A DNA stretch of 64,000 nucleotides from Bacteroidota bacterium (GTDB lineage: Bacteria; Bacteroidota; Ignavibacteria; Ignavibacteriales; Ignavibacteriaceae): contig JAMCWE010000021.1 of assembly GCA_023475265.1 (NCBI GenBank), positions 1 to 64,000 on the forward strand, written 5' to 3'. The translations under genes and the position numbers were made by a program. Below are positions 47,653-55,341 of the stretch, piece after piece (the stretch's first letter is position 1; the number at the start of each line of letters is the position of its first letter). Below the pieces are notes generated by a model that searched no databases, was not told where the DNA came from, and saw nothing but the letters and a program-made list of their open reading frames with translations.

Positions 47653-47682
47653 TTGACAAATCAAAAAACTGTTTTATATTTG
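47653..47682 (+). promoter_or_regulatory. Candidate trp operon promoter: TTGACA-N16-TATATT, overlapping TAnnTTTG-type element TATATTTG
   Basis: Sequence ttgacaaatcaaaaaactgttttatatttg upstream of trpL. Confidence 0.6.
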
Positions 47683-47690
47683 GAACCAAC

Positions 47691-47786
47691 ATGAAAAAGA
47701 TTTCTGGAACATATTATTACACTAATAAAAAATTTAACCAAAATTCTTGGTGGTGGTATAGTGCGCATAATAGTATGACCCAGTGA
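47691..47786 (+). CDS. trpL: trp operon leader peptide MKKISGTYYYTNKKFNQNSWWWYSAHNSMTQ
   Basis: 31-codon ORF with three consecutive UGG Trp codons (47748-47756), followed by terminator and trpE. Confidence 0.92.
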   Translation: MKKISGTYYYTNKKFNQNSWWWYSAHNSMTQ

Positions 47787-47813
47787 TTTTGAGATAAATA
47801 ATTTTTACTAACG

Positions 47814-47850
47814 AACCCTTCTCAGTCAAACTGGGAAGGGTTTTTTGTTT
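47814..47850 (+). terminator. trp attenuator terminator AACCCTTCTCAGT-CAA-ACTGGGAAGGGTT + T-tract
   Basis: 13-bp stem with a single G-U wobble, 3-nt loop, TTTTTTGTTT tail. Confidence 0.93.
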
Positions 47851-47862
47851 TATGGTGGAAAT

Positions 47863-49338
47863 ATGAATTTCAATAGATTTAAAGAACTTGCAAAAGAATA
47901 TAATTTAATACCGGTTTATGAAGTAATCACAGCGGATTTACTTACTCCCGTTTTAGCCTATTTAAAAATCCGTGAGAAAGGAAAGCAAAATTTCCTTCTT
48001 GAATCTGTTGAGGGTACATCAAACATGGCTCGTTATTCTTTTATTGGAAAGAATCCAATTAAGATAATTCAAAATAAGGGAATTGAAATTTCAGAAAGAA
48101 CAAACGGCAGCTTTAAATCATTTCAAGAATCTATTTTCGAACTTATCCGCAAAGAGTTAAAACAATTTAAACAACCAAAAATTGAAGAGCTGCCGGATTT
48201 CACCGGCGGAGTTGTTGGATATTTAGGTTATGAAAATATTTCTCTTATTGAAAAAGTAATAAAGTTTAATTCCGAAAGTTTCAACAACCCGGATTCAATA
48301 TTCGGAATTTACAACACGATTCTTGCCTTCGATCATTACAAACATCAAATAACTTTAATAACAAATGTAAAAGTTGATAATAATACAAACCTTGAAAAAG
48401 CATTTAATGATGCAAAAGAAATCTTATCTTCATTAAGAATGGAATTGAAAAAACCAGTGGAATACAATTCCGACTTTGATCTTGATGGAGAGGTAAAAGA
48501 ATATTTTGAGACCGGAGAATTTTATAATCAAGTTGAAGCTGGAAAACAAAATATTATCGAAGGAGATATTTTTCAAATTGTTCTTTCAAAAAGATTTTCA
48601 TCAAGATATAAAGGCGATTTGCTTAATGTCTATCGAGCTTTGCGGATTATCAATCCATCTCCGTATATGTATTTTCTGGAGTTCGAAAATGATTTTACAA
48701 TTATCGGCACATCTCCTGAAGATTTATTGAAAGTTAAAAATAGAAAGACTCAACTCTTACCAATTGCCGGAACAAGAAAGCGCGGAAAATCATTCGAAGA
48801 AGATAAAAATCTTGAACAAGATTTGATCAACGACCCGAAAGAACAAGCCGAGCATACAATGCTTGTTGATTTAGGCCGGAATGATCTCGGCAGAGTTTGT
48901 AAGTATGGTTCTGTAAAAGTTACGGAGAACATGAAGATCCAAAAATATTCGCACGTAATGCACATGGTTTCAAAAGTTGAAGGTGAACTTGCGGATGATA
49001 AGGATTCTATTGATGCTTTGATGTCTTGCTTCCCTGCTGGAACAGTTACCGGTGCGCCGAAGATTCGCGCAATTCAACTCATTGATGAATATGAAAAACA
49101 AGAAAGAAATGTATACGCCGGTGCCGTTGGTTATTTTGATTTTTCCGGTAATCTTGATATGTGCATTGCGATAAGAACATTGTTCGCAAAAAAGGATGTA
49201 GTCTATTGGCAAGCCGGTGCCGGAATAGTTGCAGACAGCAAGCATGAACTTGAAGCAAAAGAAATTAGAAATAAATCTGCAGCAATGGTGAATGCATTAA
49301 AATTTGCGGAGGTGATTGATGAAAATATTGGTAATTGA
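47863..49338 (+). CDS. trpE: Anthranilate synthase component I
   Basis: LLESVEGTSNMARYSFIG, NPSPYMYFLEF, GTVTGAPKIRAIQLI; ORF-track TTG start lies in the terminator T-tract, so ATG 47863 is preferred. Confidence 0.96.
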   Translation: MNFNRFKELAKEYNLIPVYEVITADLLTPVLAYLKIREKGKQNFLLESVEGTSNMARYSFIGKNPIKIIQNKGIEISERTNGSFKSFQESIFELIRKELKQFKQPKIEELPDFTGGVVGYLGYENISLIEKVIKFNSESFNNPDSIFGIYNTILAFDHYKHQITLITNVKVDNNTNLEKAFNDAKEILSSLRMELKKPVEYNSDFDLDGEVKEYFETGEFYNQVEAGKQNIIEGDIFQIVLSKRFSSRYKGDLLNVYRALRIINPSPYMYFLEFENDFTIIGTSPEDLLKVKNRKTQLLPIAGTRKRGKSFEEDKNLEQDLINDPKEQAEHTMLVDLGRNDLGRVCKYGSVKVTENMKIQKYSHVMHMVSKVEGELADDKDSIDALMSCFPAGTVTGAPKIRAIQLIDEYEKQERNVYAGAVGYFDFSGNLDMCIAIRTLFAKKDVVYWQAGAGIVADSKHELEAKEIRNKSAAMVNALKFAEVIDENIGN

Positions 49339-49885
49339 TAATTATGATTCATTTACTTACAATCTTGTTCAGCTCTTAGGCAAACTTGATTGCAAGCTTG
49401 TTGTCAAGCGAAATGATGAAGTAAATGAAAATCAAATTAATGAAATTAAGCCGGATAAAATTTTGGTTTCACCCGGCCCCGGCAGACCTGAAGATTCAAA
49501 TGCATCAATAACTGCTTTTGAAAAATTTAGTAAAAAAATTCCGATCCTTGGGGTTTGCCTCGGTCATCAAGCAATGGGTTATGTTTATGGAGGAAAAATT
49601 ATAAAAGCCCCGGTTTTAATGCACGGAAAAACTTCAATTATTAATCATGATGGTAGAACGATCTTTAAAAATATTCCACAAGGATTTAAAGCAACAAGAT
49701 ATCATTCGTTAATAATTGAAAAGAAATCGCTTCCTGAAGAACTTGAAATTTCAGCAGAGTCAGAAGATGGTTGTATCATGGGAATTCGACATAAAGAATT
49801 TCCGGTAGAAGGAATTCAATTTCATCCCGAATCATTTTTAACCGATGAAGGAATTAATATAATTAAAAATTGGTTGGCAACATGA
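49319..49885 (+). CDS. trpG: Anthranilate synthase component II (glutamine amidotransferase)
   Basis: ILVIDNYDSFTYNLVQLLG, ILGVCLGHQAMG; overlaps trpE end. Confidence 0.96.
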   Translation: MKILVIDNYDSFTYNLVQLLGKLDCKLVVKRNDEVNENQINEIKPDKILVSPGPGRPEDSNASITAFEKFSKKIPILGVCLGHQAMGYVYGGKIIKAPVLMHGKTSIINHDGRTIFKNIPQGFKATRYHSLIIEKKSLPEELEISAESEDGCIMGIRHKEFPVEGIQFHPESFLTDEGINIIKNWLAT

Positions 49886-50907
49886 TAAAAGAATATTTGG
49901 AAAAAATTGTCAGCAATAAAGATTTATCATTTGATGAATCTTTCACAGCGATGAGTGAAATTATGAATGGTGAAGTAAACAATTCTCATCTCGCCGGATT
50001 TCTTATCGCACTTAAATCTAAAGGCGAAATGCCTGCTGAAGTTGCGGGCTTTGCAAAAGCAATGCAGGAGAAAAGCATTAGAATAAATTGCGTTGATGAA
50101 AATGTAATTGATGTTTGCGGTACCGGCGGAGATAATTCCGGCAGCTTCAATATTTCAACTGCCACTGCTTTTGTTGTAGCCGGCGCCGGCGTTAAAGTTG
50201 CAAAGCATGGCAATCGTTCTATTTCAAGTAAAAGCGGCAGCGCCGATGTTTTACAATCTCTTGGTGTAAATATTAATCTTACTAAGGATCAATCAGAAGA
50301 AGCACTGAATAATATTGGAATCGCATTTCTCTTTGCACCTCTTTATAACCCGGCAATGAAGTATGCTGCTATAGTTAGAAAAGAGCTTGGTATGAAAACT
50401 GTTTTCAATATGCTTGGACCATTAACTAATCCAGCCAGAGTAAAAAAACAAATTATTGGTACTTTCAACCTCAAGGCTGCTAAAACTATGGCGGAAGCCG
50501 CAAAGTATCTCGATCTTAAAAAAGTTTGTTTTATCTGTGGCAATAATAAATATGATGAAATTTTTCTCGGTGATTTGACTGAAGTAAATGAATATAATCA
50601 AGGCAAAGATATCACTTCGTATACTTTGTCGAATGAGTCTTTTAATTATCCATTGATTCAACAAAATGATATTAAAGGTGATACTCCTGAAGTTAATGCC
50701 CAAATTATTCTTGAAGTTTTCAGCAATCACAAAAAAAATGGTGCGTTTCATACGGTAGCTGCGAATGCTGCTTTAGCTTTATATGCAGCAGATTATTCCG
50801 ACAATTTAAATGAGTGTCAGAGAGCTGCAGAAAATTCAATCTTAAGTGGTGCTGCTTTAAATAAATTGAATGAACTGAAAAAATTTAGCTCTTCTTTTAT
50901 GAGTTAA
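49882..50907 (+). CDS. trpD: Anthranilate phosphoribosyltransferase
   Basis: VCGTGGDNSGSFNISTATAFVVAGAGVKVAKHGNRSISSKSGSADVL. Confidence 0.97.
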   Translation: MIKEYLEKIVSNKDLSFDESFTAMSEIMNGEVNNSHLAGFLIALKSKGEMPAEVAGFAKAMQEKSIRINCVDENVIDVCGTGGDNSGSFNISTATAFVVAGAGVKVAKHGNRSISSKSGSADVLQSLGVNINLTKDQSEEALNNIGIAFLFAPLYNPAMKYAAIVRKELGMKTVFNMLGPLTNPARVKKQIIGTFNLKAAKTMAEAAKYLDLKKVCFICGNNKYDEIFLGDLTEVNEYNQGKDITSYTLSNESFNYPLIQQNDIKGDTPEVNAQIILEVFSNHKKNGAFHTVAANAALALYAADYSDNLNECQRAAENSILSGAALNKLNELKKFSSSFMS

Positions 50908-50939
50908 AATATTTTGGAAATAAATAAACGAAAGACAAA

Positions 50940-51734
50940 GTGAACGTTCTAGAAAAAATTTTAGATAAGAAAAAAGATGAAGTGTCATTATTGAAAAGAA
51001 AATTTTCAATCGATTCCTTTAGCAACATGCCATTCTTTTCTGAGAAATCTTTGAGCTTTATTGATGAAGTAAGATCAAACAAAAATATTTCGATAATCGC
51101 CGAGATAAAAAAAGCTAGCCCTTCCAAAGGATTAATCAGAGAAAATTTTGACCATCTTAGTACCGCAGAAATATATTTCAGTCGGAATGTTAATGCTGTA
51201 TCTATTTTAACTGATAAAGAATTTTTTCAAGGTGACATTAATTTTTTGCTAGATATAGCTAAGATTAAACAAGTTCCATTGTTAAGGAAAGATTTTATTA
51301 TCGATGAAATTCAGGTTTATGAAGCTAAGGCTAATGGAGCGGATATTATTTTATTGATTTGCGAAGCTCTTACTAAAAATCAGATAAAAGAATTTACGTC
51401 TCTGGCAGAAGAAATCGGATTGGAAGTTCTTTTAGAGCTTCACTCAATTGATCAAATTGACAAAATCGATTTTACAAGAAATAAATTGATCGGTGTTAAC
51501 AACCGCAATTTAAATGATTTCTCTGTTGATCTTTCAACGACACAAATTATTTCTAAGTATTTACCGGAAGATATAATTCTTGTTTCTGAAAGCGGAATAA
51601 GCAATAAAGATGATATTATTTTTTTACGGGAAACAAAAGTAAATGCAATATTAGTCGGTGAGCTGTTAATGAGTTCGAATAATATCGAACTAAAACTTTC
51701 TGATCTTAAAAATTGGTGTTCAAATGAAGGTTAA
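50940..51734 (+). CDS. trpC: Indole-3-glycerol phosphate synthase (GTG start)
   Basis: IIAEIKKASPSKGLIRENF, LIGVNNRNLNDFSVDL. Confidence 0.96.
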   Translation: MNVLEKILDKKKDEVSLLKRKFSIDSFSNMPFFSEKSLSFIDEVRSNKNISIIAEIKKASPSKGLIRENFDHLSTAEIYFSRNVNAVSILTDKEFFQGDINFLLDIAKIKQVPLLRKDFIIDEIQVYEAKANGADIILLICEALTKNQIKEFTSLAEEIGLEVLLELHSIDQIDKIDFTRNKLIGVNNRNLNDFSVDLSTTQIISKYLPEDIILVSESGISNKDDIIFLRETKVNAILVGELLMSSNNIELKLSDLKNWCSNEG

Positions 51735-52344
51735 AGTTTGTGGAATAACCAATCTTGCTGATGCTTTGATGTGTGAAAAGTTTGGCGCAGATGCACTCGG
51801 ATTTATCTTCTACAAAAAAAGTAAAAGATATATTGCTACAGAGAAAGCAAAAGGAATCATAAATCGTTTATCCCCATTTACAATAAAAATTGGTGTGTTC
51901 GTAGACGAAACTTCTGAATATATAAATAAAATTGCCGAAGAAATAAAAATCAATCTAGTTCAGCTTCACGGAAACGAAACTCCGGAAATAGCAGAAAGAG
52001 TTTCTCTGCCGGTTATAAAAAGCTTTAGGATTTCATACGATTTTGATTTTTCAATTTTAACTAATTATAAGAATGTTTATTATCTGCTTGATTCATATTC
52101 AAAAAATGAATTCGGTGGGACCGGTAATAAATTCAACTGGCAAATGATTCCTGAAGAATTAAAAGATAAAATTATTCTGGCAGGTGGAGTTTCAATAAAC
52201 AATATCGAAGAGATTTATAAAAATATTAATCCTATTGCAGTAGACATTTCGTCTTCACTCGAAAGAGAACCTGGGAAAAAGGATCAACAAAAGGCAAAAA
52301 GTTTTTTTACGAAATTAAATTCATTGAAGGAAAATTTATGTTGA
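51724..52344 (+). CDS. trpF: Phosphoribosylanthranilate isomerase
   Basis: KVCGITNLADALMCEKFGADALGFIFY; VQLHGNETPE. Confidence 0.95.
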   Translation: MKVKVCGITNLADALMCEKFGADALGFIFYKKSKRYIATEKAKGIINRLSPFTIKIGVFVDETSEYINKIAEEIKINLVQLHGNETPEIAERVSLPVIKSFRISYDFDFSILTNYKNVYYLLDSYSKNEFGGTGNKFNWQMIPEELKDKIILAGGVSINNIEEIYKNINPIAVDISSSLEREPGKKDQQKAKSFFTKLNSLKENLC

Positions 52345-53372
52345 TAATTATGAAGCTTGATACTCCAAGAGATTCAATTGAAAGAGTAAAAAGCAAAATC
52401 GTCGAAAGAAATTGTGTACCGCATGAAATTCCTGGCGCAAGCAAACTTGGAATTGGTATCACCGGCCCTACGAGCCTTCTTATAGAAGAAGAATTTCAAA
52501 ACATGGAAGATGTTGAAGAAGTAATTCGTGTTACAAAACCTTACAAACTTGTCAGCCGGGAAATGAAAAAGGAAGATACAATAATAAAAATGAATGAGCT
52601 AAAAATCGGCGGAGAAGAATTGACGATCATAGCTGGCCCGTGTTCTGTAGAAAGCAGGCAGCAGCTATTCGACATTGCTGGAGAGTTGAAAGAATTGGGA
52701 ATTAAATTCCTTCGAGCCGGCGCTTATAAACCTCGCTCAAGTCCATATTCTTTTCAAGGATTAAAAGAAAAAGGAATTGAGATTCTTTTCGAAGTTAAAA
52801 AAGAACTTGGAATGATGATTGTAACTGAAGCAAAAGATTCAAAGTCTCTTCCGCTGATCGCTGATGTTGCTGATATCATTCAAATAGGCGCACGCAACAT
52901 GCAAAACTTTTCATTACTTGAGGAAGTCGGCCAATTAAAAAACACAATTCTCTTGAAGCGAGGATTAGCAGCAACAATTGAAGATCTGCTTATGAGCGCA
53001 GAATATATTTTATCACAAGGTAATTTTAATGTAATTCTTTGTGAGCGAGGAATACGAACTTTTGAAACGATGACAAGAAATACTTTAGATTTAAATGCTG
53101 TACCAACAATTAAAAAGCAATCTCATCTTCCTATCATTGTGGATCCATCGCATGGAATTGGAATTTGGGATAAAGTTCAGCCAATGGCTATGGCAGCAAT
53201 TGCATGCGGTGCAGATGGCTTAATGATCGAAGTACATAATCATCCGGATAAAGCTTTATCGGATGGATATCAATCTCTAACACCAAAGAATTTTAAAAAA
53301 CTTTTAGAAAAAATCGAACAGTTGGCTCCAATTGTCGATAGAAAGATTTCAGATTATGCAAATGTCGAATAA
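52338..53372 (+). CDS. aroF: 3-deoxy-7-phosphoheptulonate synthase (AroG_Bsub/AroAII-type with N-terminal ferredoxin-like domain)
   Basis: [62 protein letters not shown]. Confidence 0.95.
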
Positions 53373-54555
53373 ATATAATTCCCCGGATGTAAACGGGCAT
53401 TTCGGGAAGTTCGGTGGAAAATATGTTCCCGAAACTTTGATCACTCCTTTAAAAGAATTGGAAGAAACTTATTTTCAATTGACTAAAGAAAAAAATTTTC
53501 AAGATGAATTAAATAAATTAAATAAAGAGTATACGGGCCGCCCTACTCCGCTAACTTTTGCAGATGGATTAACAAAATATTTCGACAAAGCAAAAATTTA
53601 TTTGAAGCGGGAAGATCTTTGTCATACTGGCGCACATAAAATAAATAATGCACTTGGCCAAATTCTTCTTGCAAAAAAACTCGGTAAGACAAGAATAATT
53701 GCTGAAACCGGCGCAGGACAGCATGGAGTAGCAACTGCAACAGTTTGTGCAAAATTCGGATTAAAATGTTTTGTTTATATGGGCGAAGTTGATATCGAAC
53801 GGCAAAGCTTAAATGTTTTTAGAATGAAACTTCTTGGAGCTGAAGTTATTCCAGTTTCATCCGGCAGCAGAACATTAAAAGATGCTGCCAATGAAGCCAT
53901 AAGAGATTGGGTAACAAATGTAAAAGATACTCATTACATAATCGGTTCGGTTGTTGGTCCGCATCCTTACCCAATGATCGTAAGAGATTTTCAATCAGTT
54001 ATCGGCAAAGAAACTAAAGAACAAATTCAAATAGCGGAAGAAAGATTGCCGGATTATATAGTAGCCTGTGTTGGCGGCGGCAGTAATGCCATTGGAATTT
54101 TTTATTCATTCATTAATACTAAAGTAAAGCTTATCGGTGTTGAAGCTGCTGGTTATGGAATAAACACAAATAAACATTGTGCAACTTTAACTCTTGGGCG
54201 AGAAGGGATTTTTCAAGGAATGAAAACTTATCTTCTTCAAAATGATGAAGGACAAGTTTCTGAAGTTCATTCAATTTCAGCCGGACTAGATTATCCTGGT
54301 GTTGGTCCGGAACACAGCCTTTTTAAAGATGAAGTTATTGCTGATTATTATTCAGTAACAGATGATGAAGCGATTCGAGCAACTGAATTATTATCTAAGG
54401 CGGAAGGAATTATTCCTGCGCTTGAATCAGCACATGCGGTTGCTTATTTGAACTATCTAATGCCAAATACAAAGAAAGACGAAATTGTAATCGTTAATAT
54501 TAGCGGCAGAGGTGATAAAGATTTAAACACAATTAAAGATAAATTGGGATATTAA
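53356..54555 (+). CDS. trpB: Tryptophan synthase beta chain
   Basis: [40 protein letters not shown]; start 53356 or 53362, overlapping the end of aroF. Confidence 0.97.
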
Positions 54556-55341
54556 ATGACAACTATTGCAAATTATATTTCAGGCAAAAACAATAAAAAT
54601 GAAAAAGTCCTTTCGGTTTTTTTAACCTCCGGATTTCCAGATAAAAATAATTTTGTCGAACTTGCGTTAAGAGCCTTAGAAGCCGGCGCAGACATGCTTG
54701 AAATTGGTTTCCCGTTTAGCGATCCGTTAGCAGATGGTCCTATCATTCAACATTCATCTCAAATCGCACTTGAAAACGGAATTAACATTACCAAGACTTT
54801 TAATTTCATAAAAGAAATTAGAAGCCGCACTGACAAACCTTTGATCCTGATGGGTTATGCAAATCCTGTATTATCTTATGGAATAGAAAAGTTTGCTGAA
54901 AACGCAAAATCATTAGGAGTAAATGGAGTAATAATTCCGGACATTCCGATCGAAGAATATGAAAATTTTTATAATCATTTATTTGATGAAGTTAATACTA
55001 TATTATTAGTTACGCCTACTACTTCAAATGATCGTATTAAATTAATAGATGAAAAGAGCAGCGGATTTATATACTGTGTTTCTGTAAGCGGAACCACAGG
55101 GATTACTAATCAAGATAAAATTACTAGTATAGAATTTGTAAAACGAACTCGTTCAATTGTAAAAAAGAATAAAATGCTAGTAGGATTTGGAATTTCAAGT
55201 GTTAAAGATGCTCAATCTTTTGCGCCTTATTGCGATGGAATAATTGTTGGCAGCGCAGTTATTAAATCTCTGATGAATGATAGCTCGGATTATGTTAAAA
55301 CGCTTGATCTTATAAAAAAATTAAAACAGGCATTAGTTTAA
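54556..55341 (+). CDS. trpA: Tryptophan synthase alpha chain
   Basis: AGADMLEIGFPFSDPLADGPIIQHSS; GFIYCVSVSGTTG. Confidence 0.97.
   Translation: MTTIANYISGKNNKNEKVLSVFLTSGFPDKNNFVELALRALEAGADMLEIGFPFSDPLADGPIIQHSSQIALENGINITKTFNFIKEIRSRTDKPLILMGYANPVLSYGIEKFAENAKSLGVNGVIIPDIPIEEYENFYNHLFDEVNTILLVTPTTSNDRIKLIDEKSSGFIYCVSVSGTTGITNQDKITSIEFVKRTRSIVKKNKMLVGFGISSVKDAQSFAPYCDGIIVGSAVIKSLMNDSSDYVKTLDLIKKLKQALV

Follow-up and report, generated by a model that had tools for sequence, protein, structure and literature searches.

A predicted tryptophan-responsive attenuator ahead of the trp operon in Ignavibacteriales, with an antiterminator that appears to take the 3' arm of the terminator

The leader ahead of trpE in the window (the whole 64,000-nt stretch of DNA that was analysed) very probably attenuates transcription of the trpEGDCF-aroF-trpBA operon in a Trp-responsive, ribosome-mediated manner. 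The computed support consists of the parts themselves, their conservation, the covariation of three helices and a thermodynamic predisposition of the RNA at the decisive transcript lengths; what we infer concerns the Trp response, the transcription start, the ribosome positions and the kinetics. Ahead of the trp genes lie a tandem-Trp ORF whose translation is predicted, a terminator, a computed antiterminator that excludes the terminator and could be masked by a ribosome, and a 1:2 helix. A leader-peptide device of this type is textbook material and would not surprise a specialist; the new part, and the one of interest, is the 3'-arm geometry of the antiterminator. The locus would represent a complete three-helix Trp attenuator with covariation over about 45 genera, in which the antiterminator takes the opposite terminator arm, and it offers an Rfam-ready leader family and a predicted regulator in little-studied bacteria. 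The features, in window coordinates, are the following.

47653-47682, + strand: promoter, TTGACA (47653-47658) and TATATTTG (47675-47682), the latter fitting the TAnnTTTG -7 consensus of Bacteroidetes
47691-47786, + strand: leader peptide ORF, 31 aa, MKKISGTYYYTNKKFNQNSWWWYSAHNSMTQ, TGA stop
47697-47719, + strand: segment 1, 5' strand of the anti-antiterminator, containing the ACATAT of codons 7-8 (pair probability, covariation and codon statistics)
47748-47756, + strand: three tandem Trp codons, TGG TGG TGG, predicted ribosome stall site
47768-47790, + strand: segment 2, 3' strand of the anti-antiterminator, overlapping L1 (folding and covariation)
47779-47785, + strand: L1, outer antiterminator strand CCCAGTG, overlapping the last codons and the stop (covariation)
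47790-47794, + strand: L2, inner antiterminator strand TGAGA, partner 47820-47824 (weak in the swap test)
47813-47848, + strand: intrinsic terminator with 5' arm, 3-nt loop, 3' arm and T tract; the L1 target is 47829-47835
47863-55341, + strand: trpE-trpG-trpD-trpC-trpF-aroF (DAHP synthase)-trpB-trpA, the operon predicted to be regulated (NCBIfam models)

The individual elements proposed by the initial annotation were recovered. Its TGG triplet lies inside the leader ORF, its 13-bp terminator with T-tract (47814-47842) was found as a 14-pair hairpin (47813-47843) that has a loop of 3 nt and is trailed by a T tract, and the four strands from which it had drawn an antiterminator, CCCAGT (47779-47784), TGAGA (47790-47794), TCTCA (47820-47824) and ACTGGG (47830-47835), are all present. 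The hairpin was the strongest of four terminator-like matches in the 5 kb scanned, and the 221-nt region folded to -56 kcal/mol as compared with -39.6 ± 3.9 kcal/mol after shuffling (z = -4.2), beating 200 of 200 shuffles. The 4.77-Mb genome has just 17 copies of TGGTGGTGG, and among ten other TGGx3 loci inspected (of the 17 sites, the window's own included) none was a leader-terminator unit. Downstream, a profile search recovered the full trp pathway, with every operon gene above its curated NCBIfam cut-off (trpG through the trpG_papA subfamily model), while panD lies divergently upstream of the leader. A DAHP synthase gene (52350-53369) is situated inside the operon between trpF and trpB; because of this position, a Trp attenuator here would also govern entry to the common aromatic pathway.

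The leader was examined in relatives by gathering upstream regions via TrpE from the class and the order (n = 134), and in 102 of them (window included) a terminator stood behind a Trp-cluster ORF. Within the order, the Trp-cluster leader ORF was present in 99 of 101 genomes (44/46, 50/50 and 5/5 by family), and leader and terminator together stood upstream of trpE in 91 of the 101 genomes examined (43/46, 43/50 and 5/5). The initial annotation had made its case depend on retention of the WWW leader and terminator in relatives, and retention is what these counts document; a chance motif was likewise ruled out as an explanation, because leader and terminator are conserved across the order's three families. 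Elsewhere in the class the leader occurred in families f19, f6, f23 and f13 and in one of four f4 genomes, and it was not found in the TrpE upstream regions scanned from f17, f18, f9, f5 and f24. Outside the class, a Trp-cluster leader preceded trpE in most sampled genomes of f28, f34, f36 and f37 and in single genomes of f35, f38, f45, f47, f49, f51, f52 and f54, and none was found ahead of trpE in the sampled genomes of f26, f31, f33 and f44. Since the leader is present in many families and absent from other sampled ones, its distribution in the phylum is widespread but patchy. At the f37 loci L176-L184 and L142-L148, WWWP leaders stand upstream of trpE, for the most part with no terminator in the scan; these perhaps have interrupted terminators or another output.

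The leader ATG of the window lies 8 nt past the -7 element, a gap from which a 5' UTR of about 4 nt, and thus a near-leaderless start, is predicted. TAnnTTTG, the -7 consensus of Bacteroidetes (PMC7366714), was found in 55 genomes, in 52 of which it preceded the leader ATG by 4-13 nt; a TTG at the upstream spacing was present in 53 of the 55, so that the TTG/TAnnTTTG pair marks 53 of the 102 leaders (window included). If transcription starts about 5 nt after TAnnTTTG, the predicted 5' UTR would be roughly 0-8 nt in about half of the 102 leaders. UTRs this short are uncommon in the phylum: those below 10 nt make up about 3.7% in Bacteroides (PMC7366714), and a passage of the Flavobacterium psychrophilum transcriptome study gives 5.5% of the mRNAs examined as leaderless (PMC9723704).

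In the mechanism that we propose, the transcript would begin a few nucleotides ahead of the leader ATG and the ribosome would trail RNA polymerase. With charged tRNA-Trp abundant, the ribosome would reach UGA and hide L1 and L2, upon which the terminator would form and transcription would end. With charged tRNA-Trp scarce, the ribosome would stall at UGG-UGG-UGG; during the stall L2 would engage the terminator's upper 5' arm, after which L1 would pair with the emerging loop and upper 3' arm, a capture that would let polymerase clear the U tract ahead of terminator formation. In transcripts carrying no ribosome, segment 1 would pair with the L1/L2 region and the terminator would be restored.

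Folding of the nascent RNA agreed with the stall/stop logic that the initial annotation had put forward: antitermination is predicted when a ribosome occupies the Trp codons, and termination when it occupies the stop codon. The calculations describe equilibrium on partial transcripts, not kinetics, and a ribosome footprint extending up to 14 nt beyond the first nucleotide of the A-site codon was assumed (E. coli values). In the window, when the ribosome occupied the first or the third Trp codon and the transcript was exposed to 47835-47838, the antiterminator probability was 0.98 and that of the terminator ≤0.01, and with the ribosome at the stop codon the terminator probability was 0.90-0.97. 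With no ribosome, the antiterminator reached 0.84 at 47835 and the terminator 0.97 by 47838. Once 47842 was exposed the terminator was favoured whatever the ribosome state, as at full length; thus, the decision must fall while polymerase crosses the U tract, and the device can work only kinetically. The switch was predicted generally as well: among all 102 sequences, when 9 nt of the hairpin were kept hidden, pairing by the leader strand prevailed in 97 with the ribosome at the first Trp codon and in 18 with it at the stop; the corresponding numbers were 79 and 12 with 7 nt hidden, and 45 and 4 with 5 nt hidden, a length at which the leader strand prevailed in no more than 45-56 of the 102.

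L1, near the leader stop (CCCAGUG, CUCAGUG, CCCGGUGAAU and similar), complements the terminator loop and the upper 3' arm (ACUGGG, CACUGAG, AUUCACCGGG). Its offset from the stop codon varies from about -12 to +17 nt, which would largely keep it within reach of a ribosome sitting at the stop, and this drift relative to the stop codon argues that the RNA, not the peptide, is under selection. In 86 sequences L1 and the 3' arm formed 263 Watson-Crick pairs over four variable columns, as compared with 206 ± 6.6 for arm-swapped sequences and a maximum of 233 in 5000 swaps. When the swaps were made within families with one genome per genus, z-scores of -4.2 (19 genera) and -5.0 (26 genera) were obtained for this pairing, versus -2.2 and -1.1 for pairing with the 5' arm. 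Counts of both-side changes came from 36 aligned genomes of the window's family, an alignment that served for the antiterminator, anti-antiterminator and terminator; the nested antiterminator had 25 such changes versus 8.0 ± 2.5 (reached in 0 of 500 shuffles) and the terminator 17 versus 2.5 ± 1.5, shuffle comparisons of this kind being inflated by relatedness, which the one-per-genus tests reduce but do not abolish. Sliding the antiterminator partner by 1-3 columns in the same alignment lowered pairing from 86% to 36-48%. A terminator U.G wobble at columns 149/162 was kept in 24 of the 36 genomes, and 3'-arm column 162 tracks L1 column 103 (C-G 19, U-A 8, U-G 6); the 3' arm therefore appears to be tuned to L1 at the terminator's cost. 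Consensus folding of the family alignment returned the terminator only, an expected outcome because the alternative helices compete, and pairs were then counted for the named structures. Of the antiterminator drawn in the initial annotation, then, capture of the 3' arm by L1 is borne out by covariation and nascent-RNA folding, while the nested TGAGA:TCTCA helix (L2 with the 5' arm) shows compensatory change in certain lineages (one genus, for example, pairs CTGTAA with TTGCAG) and is weak overall by the swap test, most of the covariation signal lying in the outer pairing.

Covering L1 is a third helix, in which 20 pairs join 47697-47719 to 47768-47790, that is, leader codons 3-10 to the stop-codon region; the pair probability of its core is near 1 in the window RNA folded without a ribosome. 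In the 36-genome alignment 14 of these 20 pairs were compensatory (68 cells versus 29.6 ± 5.3), and the one-per-genus tests gave z-scores of -6.1 and -7.3. The Trp codons sit in the loop of this 1:2 helix, downstream of segment 1. Because segment 1 is upstream of them, a stalled ribosome would give it no direct masking, unlike the situation in E. coli. The initial annotation had described a compact variant of the 2:3 scheme, a description that lacked this helix; with a conserved anti-antiterminator present, the scheme is a full three-helix switch and not a reduced one. Within segment 1, leader codons 7-8 read ACA TAT (47709-47714), and their third bases are nearly fixed in relatives: TAT is used in 69 of 71 leaders, as compared with 64% in trpE, the preceding third-base A is likewise found in 69 of 71, and ACATAT lies in frame at +18 from the ATG in 70 of 71. 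ACATAT is thus conserved beyond what pairing requires.

Two opposite antiterminator geometries of the same leader seem to exist in the phylum. Leaders of the order paired better with the loop and 3' arm than with the 5' arm and loop in 86 of 91 cases, the exceptions being L007, L061, L101, L108 and L109. Three of these (L101, L108 and L109) belong to the window's own family, and their better pairing with the terminator 5' arm could reflect reversions of a strand exchange. The 5' arm was preferred in f6, of the same class. Eight leaders from beyond the class were tested too, and seven of them favoured the 5' arm, often by a wide margin (GCAGUGGG with CCCACUGC); the eighth, from the f35 genome, leaned slightly to the 3' arm. 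On contig 80 of the window's genome (locus L169, about 370-520) there is in addition a his leader peptide, MKKFNTNIKKHTAHHHHQKFGSAGLC, together with the terminator ACCCCGGCAGATGTCGGGGT; the unit stands just upstream of an ORF that, by eye, we take to be hisG. TAnnTTTG lies 10 nt before the ATG of this leader, whose strand TGCCGG finds its partner in the 5' arm of the terminator. Since the order prefers the 3' arm and both most outside leaders and this genome's own his leader prefer the 5' arm, the exchange would be a feature of the order, not of the phylum as a whole, subject to the small size of the outside sample. On balance, we lean towards the view that the trp attenuator of the order has exchanged strands relative to most outside-class leaders and to its own his leader, so that a ribosome-gated element takes the terminator's loop and 3' arm, the Trp codons sit in the anti-antiterminator loop and the start is near-leaderless. 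If true, the two geometries would amount to a natural experiment on attenuator rewiring.

The preference of the outside-class leaders and of the his leader also lends weight to a different reading, namely that the order uses E. coli-type geometry, in which the partner of the leader strand is the 5' arm (2:3) and 3'-arm pairing is a by-product of the resemblance of L1 to that arm. TGAGA:TCTCA does engage the 5' arm, with compensatory changes in certain lineages, but the swap tests separate the two arms in favour of the 3' arm, 86 of the 91 order leaders prefer it, and at the U.G wobble the 3' arm follows L1 and not the 5' arm; we regard this reading as improbable, and a pure 5'-arm antiterminator in the order was set aside on its weak covariation and on the 86/91 preference for the loop and 3' arm. 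It is very unlikely that the leader is an ordinary small gene with its own terminator and no Trp regulation: genes commonly end in terminators, yet here the Trp-codon cluster is retained in 99 of 101 order genomes although the peptide has otherwise largely diverged, covariation extends over three mutually exclusive helices, and the stop codon shifts against a conserved RNA element, pointing to selection on the RNA. T-box and TRAP-type attenuation also control trp genes through terminators, and either might operate here with the short ORF incidental. We consider this exceedingly improbable, as no T-box or other Rfam family reached its gathering score anywhere in the window, the T-box model being unmatched, and about three (G/U)AG triplets were counted in the leader by eye against roughly eleven per TRAP site. 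The Rfam Trp_leader model (RF00513) gave no gathering-score match in the window and was missing among the weak matches too; the best weak amino-acid attenuator match on the leader was His_leader, at 21.6 bits versus a cut-off of 49. The Trp-responsive, ribosome-mediated attenuator is thus the reading we retain.

In the E. coli (Yanofsky-type) trp leader, the antiterminator forms on the terminator 5' arm and the Trp codons lie in segment 1. The present leader resembles it in placing a tandem-Trp peptide and three mutually exclusive helices ahead of trpE. It differs in that the antiterminator engages the loop and 3' arm and contains a nested 5'-arm helix, so that the main pairing is not that of the 2:3 subtype; in that the Trp codons fall between segments 1 and 2 and not inside segment 1; and in having a predicted near-leaderless start and a longer peptide (31 aa).

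In the open-access literature covered by our search, we found no description of this attenuator, of any trp attenuator in this bacterial class or of a 3'-arm antiterminator. The paper of Lopatovskaya et al. 2010 (Mol Biol 44:128), cited in PMC4833913, may list trp attenuators of the phylum. According to a 2010 survey, leader-peptide systems had, before its own Firmicutes case, been shown only in Proteobacteria and Actinobacteria (PMC2965389); the genera with covariation here belong to a different lineage. The initial annotation had remarked that such attenuators are best characterised in those two phyla, a remark to be qualified for the present phylum by the WWW leaders in many of its families and by a prior suggestion: the F. 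psychrophilum transcriptome study describes strong hints that leader peptides ahead of amino-acid operons act by attenuation (PMC9723704). That organism is reported as a member of the Bacteroidetes, whose promoter consensus the window shares, and the suggested system is like ours in having leader peptides before amino-acid operons; it differs in that the main text of the study does not name tryptophan and the passage concerned does not describe alternative helices (PMC9723704). The trpL of Sinorhizobium meliloti is a leaderless attenuator RNA whose Trp-codon ORF starts at the extreme RNA 5' end and attenuates trpE(G), a start that in our leader is predicted; its peptide is 14 aa and it belongs to another phylum (PMC7298713). 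The trp attenuators of Corynebacterium and Streptomyces likewise combine two to three Trp codons, a terminator and an antiterminator before trp genes, and share a conserved gGCC-rGCy-GGCC triple (PMC1262725), whereas in the present leader a 5'-arm-like element stands at the leader stop and pairs with the 3' arm.
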